Positions 3,684 to 60,837 of a stretch of DNA of 64,000 nucleotides are shown one piece after another. The DNA lies in the NCBI RefSeq assembly GCF_021129235.1, contig NZ_JAJOMA010000008.1:124001-188000 (forward strand), given 5' to 3'. The notes under the pieces were generated by a model. It did not search any database and was not told the DNA's origin. It saw only the letters and a program-made list of their open reading frames with translations. Positions within the stretch are counted from its first letter, which is position 1. Each line of letters starts with the position of its first letter. The translations under genes and the position numbers were made by a program. Source of the stretch: Kineosporia mesophila. Lineage in GTDB: Bacteria > Actinomycetota > Actinomycetes > Actinomycetales > Kineosporiaceae.

Positions 3684-3723
3684 TGATCAGGCGAACGTTC
3701 CCCGGGGAACGTTCGCCTGATCA
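3684..3723. repeat. Perfect 40-bp intergenic palindrome (diverged family member, terminator-like)
   Basis: Two 20-bp arms, TGATCAGGCGAACGTTCCCC and its exact complement, meet with no spacer between the convergent glgX and membrane-kinase genes. The last three bases (tca) are the stop codon of the minus-strand gene. It shares outer TGATCA, a run of four C/G at the centre and overall architecture with the TGATCATGCAAAAC elements at 13379, 26816 and 45607, but the stem sequence differs. It is probably a bidirectional transcription terminator. Confidence 0.75.
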
Positions 3724-4845
3724 GGAAAAGTTTGCGGGGGGCTTCCAGGTGACGTCGAGCCACAGCTGATCGCCACTGATGAGGCGGCTGATCTGAACCG
3801 GGCCGTCGGTGCCGGTCGGCTCCGGGGGCGCGTCGAGGGCGCCGTCCACCACCACGCTCAGCGTGACCTGGTTGTCCCGGGCGACCACGGTCAGCCGGGC
3901 CCGCGACCGGGCCCCGGCCAGCACCGGGATCACCGGTTCGGTCAGGGCGCGGCGGGCCGGCAGCGGGAGCACCGGCACGGTGCCGCGCACCGAGGCCTGT
4001 ACCGAGGTGCCCTGCCGCTCGGCCACGTCGATGCAGGCCGAGATCTCGTGGCTGAGCGGGTCGGCGACCTCGTCGCTCTCGGCGAACAGCCGGCGCATGC
4101 GGGCGGCCTCGACCGAGCAGTTGCGCCGCACCTGGGGGTCGGCCGGATCCAGCAGGCCGTCGGCGATGCCCTCGAGCAGGGGCGTGGTGGTGGTGGAGAG
4201 GTCGATGTACCGGTTCTGCCGGTCGCCGTGCACCTGTTCGGCCACCCGCTCGGACAGCCGGATGCGTTCCTCCTGGGCCGCGGTCTCCCGGGCCACGGCG
4301 GCGGACTGCCCCAGCGACACCGCGGCCACCGCCACAGCGCCCTGCCAGCTGGCCACGAGCAGACTGGTGACGCCCAGCTCGACCAGCGTCGACTTGTCGC
4401 CCTGACCGGCGGCCAGCACCTGAACCAGGGAGATCGCCTGTTGCAGGGCCAGAACGCCGAAGAACCAGCCGAGGGGCAGGTCCATCAGCAGCAGCACGGC
4501 GAACCAGCCGAACACCTTCCACGACCAGTGCGGCGGCAGGATCAGCTGCTCGGGCCGCACCGCCGCCGTGGCCAGGACCGTCGCGACCAGGGCGACAGCC
4601 ACCATCGGCCAGCGCAGCCGGCCCCACGGCCGCTCGCGCCAGACCATCCCGGCCGCCAGGGCCAGCAGGGCGACGAGCACGGTGAGGCACCCGTACTCCA
4701 GCAGCGGTGAGGTGTAGGCGCCGGGCGTGGTCACGGCGATCGGCAGGAACCAGACGCAGAGCACGGCCGTGGTCACACCCAGCGTGGCGATGTGCAGCCC
4801 GCGGATGAACTCGTCCGCGATGACCGTACGGGCGGAATCAGACAC
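3721..4845 (-). CDS. Membrane protein resembling a degenerate sensor histidine kinase
   Basis: The protein is 374 aa. The first ~200 residues contain about five or six hydrophobic segments. A helical region (about 200-270; ETAAQEERIRLSERVAEQVHGDRQNR) follows, resembling a dimerisation helix. The C-terminal third lacks recognisable N, G1 and G2 boxes of a HATPase domain, so I doubt kinase activity. It overlaps the upstream kinase gene (4838) by 8 bp, so the two are translationally coupled. It may act as a partner or regulatory subunit of that kinase. No response regulator follows. The stop codon lies inside the palindrome at 3684-3723. Confidence 0.65.
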   Translation of the reverse strand: MSDSARTVIADEFIRGLHIATLGVTTAVLCVWFLPIAVTTPGAYTSPLLEYGCLTVLVALLALAAGMVWRERPWGRLRWPMVAVALVATVLATAAVRPEQLILPPHWSWKVFGWFAVLLLMDLPLGWFFGVLALQQAISLVQVLAAGQGDKSTLVELGVTSLLVASWQGAVAVAAVSLGQSAAVARETAAQEERIRLSERVAEQVHGDRQNRYIDLSTTTTPLLEGIADGLLDPADPQVRRNCSVEAARMRRLFAESDEVADPLSHEISACIDVAERQGTSVQASVRGTVPVLPLPARRALTEPVIPVLAGARSRARLTVVARDNQVTLSVVVDGALDAPPEPTGTDGPVQISRLISGDQLWLDVTWKPPANFS

Positions 4846-8271: not shown

Positions 8272-8307
8272 CCCGGCTCCCGTCCCGGATCCGGGACGGG
8301 AGCCGGG
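8272..8307. terminator. Perfect 36-bp palindrome after phoX
   Basis: CCCGGCTCCCGTCCCGGA is followed by its exact complement with no spacer, starting 9 nt after the phosphatase stop. It is very stable as RNA and lacks a strong U-tract, which is usual for actinobacterial terminators. Confidence 0.75.
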
Positions 8308-13378: not shown

Positions 13379-13434
13379 CGATCAGGCAAACTTCCCCGGA
13401 GTTCTAGAACGCCGGGGAAGTTTTGCATGATCAC
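13379..13434. repeat. Palindromic repeat family member with one GTTCTAGAAC core
   Basis: The left arm GATCAGGCAAACTTCCCCGG and right arm CCGGGGAAGTTTTGCATGATC flank the central palindrome GTTCTAGAAC. The arms pair with a few mismatches on the left. The right arm carries the outer GTTTTGCATGATCAC signature shared with copies at 26816 and 45607. It lies about 130 bp before the FecCD operon, so it could insulate that operon from upstream transcription. Confidence 0.75.
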
Positions 13435-26815: not shown

Positions 26816-26898
26816 CGTGATCATGCAAAACCTCCCCAGAGTTCTAGAACTCCGAAGCGAAGAGTTCTAGAACTCCGGGGAGGTTTTGCATGATCACG
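26816..26898. repeat. Long palindromic repeat with two GAGTTCTAGAACTC cores
   Basis: Outer arms of about 22 bp (CGTGATCATGCAAAACCTCC and onward, with its complement on the right) flank two copies of the 14-bp palindrome GAGTTCTAGAACTC separated by CGAAGCGAA. The arms together pair over about 37 bp with one or two mismatches. It lies between two convergent genes. It is the largest member of the family also seen at 13379 and 45607. It probably works as a bidirectional terminator: the stem is flanked by AAAA/TTTT. Confidence 0.88.
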
Positions 26899-44145: not shown

Positions 44146-44200
44146 ACCCGCCAGTTTAAGCGCCGCTCCCGGGCTTTTCGCGGGGTTGTCGGGCGGTTCA

Positions 44201-44254
44201 CAGCGAGATGGAGGACGACGTACCCGGCCGGGTACGTCGTCCTCCATCTCGCTG
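44201..44254. repeat. Perfect 54-bp palindrome
   Basis: A 27-bp arm (44201-44227, beginning CAGCGAGATGGAGGACGACG) is followed directly by its exact complement (44228-44254). It lies between the stop of the first roadblock gene and the start of the GNAT gene, both on the minus strand. It is therefore probably the roadblock terminator. Its sequence is unrelated to the TGATCATGC family. Confidence 0.85.
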
Positions 44255-44264
44255 TCCGGGAGGA

Positions 44265-44894: not shown

Positions 44895-45263
44895 TCAGAT
44901 CTGGATGTTGCGCTCCAGCAGGGCCAGCTTGTGGCGGGCCATGGCGAGGTTGGAGCGGCCCTTGTCCAGGGCCAGGTACAGGAAGAGGCCCGCGCCGGCC
45001 TGACCGTTGATGAGACGGATCAGGTGGTACTGCGTGGTCAGGGTGATGAGGATGTCCTGGATGCCCTCACGCATGCCCAGGGCCTCCATGGTGCGCATCT
45101 CCGAGCGCACGACCTCGGTGTTACCCGCAGCCGCCACCTCGAGGTCCAGGACGGCACCCCCGGCCTGGCCGAGCGTCATGCCGCTCGTGTAGTCGACCAG
45201 AGCGACGCCGATGGCGCCGTCGATCATCATGGCTTCCTTGAGGACGGTGTCCAGATTGCTCAC
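44895..45263 (-). CDS. Roadblock/LC7 domain protein, copy 2
   Basis: The 122-aa protein is closely similar to copy 1 (VSNLDTVLKEAMMIDGAIGVALVD, SGMTLGQAGG, TTQYHLIRLINGQAG). It lacks one residue of the G-x-G loop and differs mainly at surface positions. GTG 45263 has the same GGAAGGAAA ribosome binding site as copy 1. The pair looks like a tandem duplication. Copies could form homo- or heterodimers. A motility or polarity role with the surrounding MCPs is inferred from location only. Confidence 0.9.
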   Translation of the reverse strand: MSNLDTVLKEAMMIDGAIGVALVDYTSGMTLGQAGGAVLDLEVAAAGNTEVVRSEMRTMEALGMREGIQDILITLTTQYHLIRLINGQAGAGLFLYLALDKGRSNLAMARHKLALLERNIQI

Positions 45264-45606
45264 GGTTGCGTTTCCTTCCGGCCACGAGGGCTGTTCTGTC
45301 GAGCGAGCAAGCGTGCTGCGCGGCGCCGGCGGGCCTTCGGTGGCTGGGCTGAGCGGAGCCGTAGGTCTCACTTGGTTGTCGGTCTCGATGGCGCCCAACT
45401 GATGCGGTCATCAGGACTCTCAGTGGTCCTATCTGGCGGCGACTACGCTCCGCAAGCTGTAAGGGTCTGCTGTGAGCGACAGCACGTGAAAATCCGGGCG
45501 TTCCTGCACTACGCGGTGGCAACGTCACGCTCCGCCAGTTCCTGGTCGTGACGGACGGTGGTGGGTGGGGACGCATTGGATCACCCGTTCGCCCGGCGGC
45601 CCTTTC
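45264..45606. other. Upstream region of roadblock copy 2
   Basis: About 340 bp contain no supported gene. They should hold the promoter of roadblock copy 2. Short open frames run through both strands but have no ribosome binding site or similarity. The right end is bounded by the palindromic repeat at 45607. Confidence 0.4.
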
Positions 45607-45656
45607 GTTCGTGATCATGCAAAACCTCCCCGGGGAGGTTTTGCATGATCACGAAC
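45607..45656. repeat. Perfect 50-bp palindromic repeat family member (no core)
   Basis: A 25-bp arm (GTTCGTGATCATGCAAAACC then TCCCC) is followed directly by its exact complement. The inner CCTCCCC/GGGGAGG and outer TGATCATGCAAAAC match the 26816 copy, but the GTTCTAGAAC core is absent. It lies 10 bp after the stop of the OYE-type reductase gene, where it should terminate transcription. Confidence 0.88.
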
Positions 45657-51989: not shown

Positions 51990-51999
51990 CCGTCAGCAG

Positions 52000-52047
52000 A
52001 ACAGAAGGGAGGACGCGTGGGGGCACCCACGCGTCCTCCCTTCTGTT
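52000..52047. terminator. 22-bp perfect-stem terminator
   Basis: AACAGAAGGGAGGACGCGTG and onward (52000-52021) pairs exactly with 52026-52047 across the loop GGCA. It lies 7 nt after the MFS transporter stop on the minus strand and after the orphan tail on the plus strand. Confidence 0.88.
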
Positions 52048-52054
52048 CCTGCTC

Positions 52055-60784: not shown

Positions 60785-60837
60785 CCCTTCTCCACCGGGT
60801 GCGACGCGCAGTACGCGTCGCACCCGGTGGAGAAGGG
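60785..60837. terminator. 24-bp perfect-stem terminator
   Basis: CCCTTCTCCACCGGGTGCGA then CGCG (60785-60808) pairs exactly with 60814-60837 across a 5-nt loop. It lies between the SDR stop (60868) and the upstream region of the ANTAR gene, and so terminates the SDR transcript. Confidence 0.85.

Follow-up and report, generated by a model that had tools for sequence, protein, structure and literature searches.

BIME/RIB and Correia elements are palindromic repeats that carry a protein-binding site, the bound protein being IHF or gyrase. The Kineosporia repeat family described here differs in that its site matches a gene-specific promoter dyad. REPINs are REP doublets that form hairpins (Bertels and Rainey 2011, PMC3116915). 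They resemble the Kineosporia family in their extragenic location, in a pair of conserved inverted ends flanking a spacer that is less conserved and whose length and ability to form a hairpin are important, and also in their compensatory changes and in singlets that resemble remnants (PMC3116915). In contrast to REPINs, the Kineosporia family has no RAYT match, its conserved unit is an outer arm plus the GTTCTAGAAC core, it is strongly placed at 3' ends and in convergent gaps, and its arm modules are exchanged within resident sites. Another report indicates that CGTC-type REPs seem to have no dedicated transposase, that REP stems measure 5-13 bp, and that GTAG and CGTC REPs, like the present elements, are short palindromic repeats whose stems allow alternative complementary residues (PMC3733652). 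The Kineosporia ends, however, read CG-TGATCA with CGRA outward, and the near-perfect stems span about 18-37 bp compared with the 5-13 bp given in that report. The column composition of 184 + 140 flanks from the two genomes with the family revealed neither a GTAG nor a CGTC end tag. Inverted DNA uptake sequences can form terminators, as stated in a further paper (PMC2267715). With such terminators, the Kineosporia family shares a repeated word in inverted pairs, here as putative terminators, but whole 79-83-nt units are repeated in Kineosporia. We know of no uptake system that uses the Kineosporia arm word. Open-licence literature yielded no paper on Kineosporia trpB or on REPIN or palindromic terminators in actinobacteria.

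We analyzed a 64-kb window (C60:124001-188000) of the 7.78-Mb genome of a Kineosporia soil bacterium in 61 contigs (G000). At the level of DNA sequence, comparison of four hairpins in this window with their relatives showed a family with roughly 100 or more copies per genome, placement at 3' ends, covarying stems, mostly vertically inherited loops and exchange of arm modules. We consider it fairly probable that these hairpins represent a lineage-specific, REPIN-like family of bidirectional terminators, without a detected RAYT, that undergoes concerted evolution and carries an operator-like dyad. The functions predicted for it are termination and protein binding.

All four hairpins were found where the original prediction had placed them (26816, 13379, 45607 and 3684), and none of them has a strand. 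The type A element at 26816-26898 measures 79 nt between TGATCA ends and 83 nt including the CG ends, and lies between convergent acyl-CoA dehydrogenase and flotillin-like genes. Its arms are 37 nt each, 97% complementary and separated by 9 nt. From left to right, it comprises the arm TGATCATGCAAAACCTCCCC (26818-26837, plus strand), a first GTTCTAGAAC palindrome (26841-26850, strandless), which is an operator-like core of the dyad type also seen in the trpBA promoter, a site-specific 13-nt loop TCCGAAGCGAAGA (26851-26863, plus strand), a second GTTCTAGAAC palindrome (26864-26873, strandless), and a right arm complementary to the left one (26877-26896, minus strand). A coreless perfect 50-nt palindrome at 45607-45656 has the same arms and is absent in the related genome G008. 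The element at 13379-13434 has a ACTTCCCC stem and one GTTCTAGAAC core (13401-13410). Outer arms and an inner stem had been claimed for all three; the arms are shared by 26816 and 45607, and at 13379 the inner stem is intact, but the left end reads CGATCAGGC and only the right arm contains the full TGATCATGCAAAAC. The claimed series of zero (45607), one (13379) and two (26816) GTTCTAGAAC cores was correct, and the suggested diverged relative at 3684-3723 is a perfect 40-nt palindrome with the arm word GCGAACGTTCCCC.

Within the window, TGATCATGCAAAAC with at most three mismatches gave 8 matches against 1.08 expected, and at least 8 were reached in 0 of 100 shuffles. The hairpins fold much more stably than their shuffles do, with z values of -8.96 (3684), -6.91 (13379), -13.92 (26816) and -10.96 (45607). 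A search of the window against Rfam at the gathering score returned 0 matches, ruling out a known RNA family there. As predicted, two of the four hairpins lie in convergent gaps (3684 and 26816), the one at 13379 being in a tandem gap. The gap at 45607 is convergent only if the plus-strand ORF 44931-45551 is a gene; the gene caller omitted this ORF and called the gap tandem. The minus-strand ORF 3721-4845 terminates within the TGATCA of the 3684 element.

That these hairpins belong to a dispersed family held up in a whole-genome search, in which TGATCATGCAAAAC with at most one mismatch was found 133 times in forward and 137 times in reverse orientation in G000, compared with 0 for the reversed-pattern control. 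With the same tolerance, the arm TGATCATGCAAAACCTCCCC was detected 119 (forward) and 121 (reverse) times in G000 and 99 and 110 times in G008, and 0 times in the other 11 of the 13 genomes searched (four of Kineosporia, seven of other genera of the family). The repeat family is thus present in two of the six Kineosporia genomes, G000 and G008, which are about 92% identical across the window. The double core GTTCTAGAAC-N5..25-GTTCTAGAAC occurs 75 times in G000, 70 times in G008 and once in G009, and 0 times in the remaining 393 of the 396 genomes of the order; each of these three totals includes one copy at the trpB site, which in G009 is the only copy. An exact double core with fixed spacing gave 0 matches in genome_contigs, from which own or very near genomes were possibly left out. 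On these 0 matches, together with the three positive genomes among 396, a wider distribution of the double core was rejected. Carriage by phages or plasmids was likewise rejected, since the element had no match to plasmids and phages at E 1e-3 and the exact 20-nt arm had none in viral_contigs.

To describe element anatomy, we parsed about 1.06 Mb of long stretches per genome plus 60 G000 loci of about 3 kb. The full elements in this sample number 92 (G000) and 70 (G008), including 67 and 33, respectively, of exactly 79 nt and 10 and 7 of 40 nt. The 79-nt form, the commonest, consists of arm, GTTCTAGAAC, 13-nt loop, GTTCTAGAAC and arm. Parsing identified a double core in 70 G000 and 49 G008 elements; its loop is 13 nt long in 117 of the 119, a spacing of 23 bp from core center to core center. 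Further modules are GTGTCCCC stems, a AGACCGAA/TTCGGTCT core, and a D module (CAGCCTTCGGCCGGGAGGTGCCCCC and its neighbors), which yields 108-nt forms. Exact GTTCTAGAAC in the sampled stretches lies near family arms in 93 of 95 cases (G000) and 98 of 100 (G008), the other two in each genome being the trpB site. A second core type, exact GACCGAA..TTCGGTC, was considered as another operator and rejected: the sampled stretches contained 0 copies in G000 and one in G008, the latter within an element. On both sides, the flanks (184 + 140) begin with CG, followed by a degenerate purine-rich and then a G/T-rich pattern to about +18, indicating that the repeat unit is wider than originally drawn. In the 13 distinct 40-nt copies, 98.3% of the cells were paired and both sides had changed in 9 of 18 stem pairs; 0 of 500 shuffles reached either value, and slid versions gave 31-49%. 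As judged from these aligned copies, the covariation shows that the hairpin is kept, although palindrome covariation can also be obtained by palindrome correction at the DNA level instead of by RNA selection.

Placement relative to genes was assessed with a simple gene caller trained in this analysis, and Fisher tests compared elements with gaps, each element counted as one gap. Convergent, tandem and divergent gaps hold 24, 38 and 7 elements in G000 and 29, 32 and 6 in G008, versus 65, 296 and 164 of all gaps of at least 60 bp in G000 (n = 525) and 78, 289 and 152 in G008 (n = 519). The convergent excess (24/69 versus 65/525 in G000, p about 1e-7; 29/67 versus 78/519 in G008, p about 1e-9) is accompanied by a divergent deficit (p about 2e-5 and 4e-5, respectively). 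One element per genome lies inside a called gene, and two G008 elements have no flanking call. Elements start a median of 20 nt past the stop codon in G000 and G008 alike. Terminal TGATCA words contain 7 called gene ends among 70 G000 elements and 5 among 70 G008 elements. The coreless 40-nt form (17 copies) is similarly placed: 9 of the 11 copies in tandem gaps are located 9-42 nt past a stop codon, and the other two 171 and 865 nt.

Stable hairpins soon after stop codons, often in convergent gaps, are the mark of bidirectional terminators, and this arrangement was found here. An RNA hairpin formed just past the stop codons would end transcription in both directions. The AAAA/TTTT flanks on which bidirectional termination had been proposed are real as A-rich and T-rich flanks, but they are weak: 49 of 184 flanks in G000 and 43 of 140 in G008 contain TTT within their first 20 nt, and positions +6 to +20 of the outward G000 flanks are 50% G and 22% T. 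Such weak U-tracts count against the terminator reading, and the bias toward 3' ends and convergent gaps could partly be due to promoter avoidance. In other Kineosporia genomes, unrelated hairpins occupy the same gaps, for example that of 26816 in G009, G006 and G007 and that of 45607 in G009, G006 and G005; at the latter gap, G008 has no comparable hairpin. The G009 gaps facing elements (L125-L128) are long, rich in short tandem repeats and contain their own hairpin, GAGACACCCCCTATACC..GGTATAGGGGGTGTCTC.

Ortholog matching between G000 and G008 took in 39 of 92 and 35 of 70 full elements, respectively, and made 42 distinct sites comparable. Tabulation of orthologous gaps, which the original prediction had proposed, showed an element in both genomes at 34 of these sites (33 parsed in both, one by eye); it is missing from G008 at seven and from G000 at one. 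The A_C60:110785 element of G000, for example, is present in G008. Three of the seven G008 absences have an arm remnant (L220:2274, L231:13600 and L011), which points to loss, and at two (A_C60:109604 and L238:13489) the G008 stretch is much longer. G008 L192:13330 and G000 L234:16584 look like a presence/absence pair, with a neighboring ordinary hairpin kept in both.

The loops were then compared between and within genomes. For the 27 pairs with two 13-nt loops, the mean inner-7 distance was 1.81, versus 4.17 with shuffled partners. In the better orientation, 23 of the 27 pairs differ at no more than 3 of 13 positions; the remaining four, which differ at 5, 5, 6 and 7, do not have the appearance of orthologs. 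At A_C60:89203, L233:9940 and L001:1366, the loop has opposite orientations in G000 and G008, as expected from recombination between inverted arms. Since ortholog loops are mostly recognizable, most sites predate the split of G000 and G008. Paralog loops, on the other hand, are near random given column composition. Distance-1 pairs number 39 versus 24.2 expected in G000 and 12 versus 8.5 in G008, a small excess that hints at some recent copying, and one pair of G000 sites has identical 13-nt loops. Near-random paralog loops and the four related genomes without the family lead to two alternatives for its spread: either it predates the four family-less Kineosporia species, with loss there, or the loops were set anew in each copy. 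The arms are almost uniform, and thus they must be held or rewritten while the loops drift.

Rewriting of arms was visible in the D module. Among the 33 sites parsed in both genomes, D was found only in G008 at 10, in both at one and only in G000 at 0. Nine of the 10 are looped type A elements with D in one G008 arm, the G000 arm being plain or GTGTCCCC; at seven of these nine, the loop differs at no more than 3 of 13 positions, showing that the arm changed inside a resident element. At the tenth site, A_C60:85239, the G000 element is 40 nt long and coreless, and G008 has a longer, D-like one. Both arms were altered together at L227:9993/L190:7869, at L220:8393/L194:11075 and at the window sites 3684 and 13379. 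In the G008 ortholog of 3684, both arms changed to GCGAAGTGTCCCC and one core was added, and the gap opposite 13379 holds a different module with a GTGTCCCC stem and a AGACCGAA/TTCGGTCT core. The G008 ortholog of the 26816 element has identical arms and a loop that differs at 3 of 13 positions. Ectopic gene conversion would homogenize the arms, and correction of one arm on the other would make both change together while the loop stays local. Matched change of both arms is what gene conversion plus palindrome correction predicts, and we infer this mechanism from it. An independently mobile D module is unsupported, because D lies next to a family arm in every sampled case: the arm precedes the D motif in 6 of 6 instances in G000 and 15 of 16 in G008 (sampled stretches), and the sixteenth has one after it. 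The approximately 92% identity of the two genomes over the window lets arm exchange be read site by site. In this way, two processes that are often lumped as repeat spread become separable, namely inheritance of sites with site-specific loops and rewriting of arms from other copies.

The double core is also present in the trpBA promoter of five of the six Kineosporia genomes: G009, G000, G008, G007 (K. rhizophila) and G005 (K. babensis). Its layout there is AGTTCTA(G/T)AACT-C-TTGAC-NNNN-(A/T)GTTCTAGAACT-C-N-TA(C/G)GGT, followed by 6-7 nt to ATG, with TTGCG for TTGAC in G000. By visual inspection, TTGAC would be the -35 box, which the dyad surrounds, and TACGGT the -10 box. Downstream lie trpB (393 aa; TIGR00263, 524.9 bits, cut-off 392.45) and trpA (271 aa; TIGR00262, 213.2 bits, cut-off 102.35). 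A second, more distant match to the trpB stretch (69-70%) exists in all six genomes. In G006 (L256), a half site is left at the old place upstream of trpBA, and a different contig carries the best trpB match (77%). The next gene upstream of trpBA on the same strand encodes an ECF-type sigma factor (L252:3334-4035, G000). In the four family-less Kineosporia genomes, exact AGTTCTAGAACT occurs at trpB only (twice in G009, once in G005, not in G006 and G007), and with at most one mismatch it is at or below the reversed-pattern control.

The same word in a conserved promoter is what is expected of an operator, and the trpBA dyad, conserved and in register with promoter-like boxes, looks like one. 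Because the same dyad type is found at trpBA and at the element center (GTTCTAGAAC-N13-GTTCTAGAAC), the element core is probably recognized by the same putative DNA-binding protein. The cores are 13 nt apart in the elements versus 12 at trpBA. Between the element loops and the trpBA spacer there was no resemblance (530 and 726 of 2000 simulations were as good), so that an origin of the loops in this -35 spacer is unsupported, and the dissimilarity and the differing spacing leave common descent of the dyads unsupported as well. The core may have been captured from trpBA, may have been given to trpBA, or may merely share its binder. A more far-reaching and rather unlikely scenario is that a terminator hairpin captured a gene-specific operator and, as it spread, multiplied the single dyad of a genome to about 70-75. 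Dozens of terminators would in that case titrate the trpBA regulator or have it as a roadblock, and the ends of transcripts would be coupled genome-wide to tryptophan or a related signal. An operator-like sequence in dozens of terminators makes regulator titration by bacterial repeats testable; on repetitive elements as decoys or in titration, the open-licence literature yielded one unrelated paper only.

The original prediction had also suggested a RAYT transposase, and this suggestion failed: Y1_Tnp had 0 matches in G000 (97% complete) and G008 (99%), with one match in G005 and 5 of 14 control genomes positive. A RAYT-driven REP is thereby rejected, and the family is a case of a REPIN-like family without a detectable RAYT. 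As in REPs and REPINs, it is a high-copy extragenic inverted doublet with a spacer of fixed length; as in MITEs, it has terminal inverted repeats. With regard to target-site duplication, column composition showed that the outward flanks have a degenerate pattern in common, in inverted orientation (CGRA followed by purine- and G/T-rich positions). The proposed mobile or homogenized REP/MITE-like repeat was thus borne out as dispersed, homogenized, modular and located at terminator positions; mobility itself has only indirect support, against which stand the 34 of 42 sites common to both genomes. The legible recent change is a gene-conversion-like replacement of arms within resident elements.

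Copying must have happened at some time, since the family is present in only two of six Kineosporia genomes. This distribution, the presence/absence pair involving G008 L192:13330, copies that are nested or in tandem (A_C60:110711/110785 and L218:9989), the identical 13-nt loop pair in G000 and the small excess of near-identical loops would all fit an active non-autonomous MITE or REPIN that is moved in trans by an unrecognized transposase, its terminator placement reflecting tolerated insertion. We regard this explanation as unlikely. Besides the missing Y1_Tnp matches, no transposase was recognized between arm pairs among the unpaired strong arms of the sample (27 in G000 and 22 in G008; about 1.06 Mb per genome). 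In the sole gene-bearing split element, a stretch of about 1.1 kb containing an AbiEi-antitoxin/endonuclease-like gene interrupts the loop (G000 C1:144964-146084, L009/L010); a like-spaced split element exists in G008 (L182:16647-17827), both arms carrying the D module. As a single locus common to both genomes, the split element was rejected as the autonomous parent. Conserved ortholog loops next to near-random paralog loops, and the arm remnants at three of seven G008 absences, also speak against such an active mobile element.

The fixed 13-nt spacing (117 of 119 loops) and the match of the dyad type to a conserved promoter site would suit palindromes that are chiefly DNA-binding sites, for chromosome organization or a regulon, with their terminator-like position being secondary. 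This is very doubtful in our view, because 17 coreless 40-nt forms keep the arms and 9 of the 11 in tandem gaps still follow a stop codon by 9-42 nt, and because the two arm words of an element vary in a matched way, as is more in keeping with a hairpin than with an invariant binding word. The shared dyad could conversely mean that the trpBA site is what is left of an ancient element after loss of its arms, and the core not an operator. Conservation of that dyad in five genomes, three of them without the family, its register with promoter-like boxes and the lack of any visible family arm at the trpBA site make such an origin quite improbable, and the reading of the elements as terminators with an operator-like center is preferred.

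Further long near-perfect palindromes of unrelated sequence lie in the window at 44200-44255, 51999-52048, 60785-60837 and 8272-8307. G008 counterparts exist for the first three, and a weaker one exists for 8272; all four are probably ordinary conserved terminators. In the palindrome at 44200 and in L129-L140, hairpins of several Kineosporia species have an ATGGACG- or GAGGACG-like word near the base and perhaps constitute an older terminator family of the genus.
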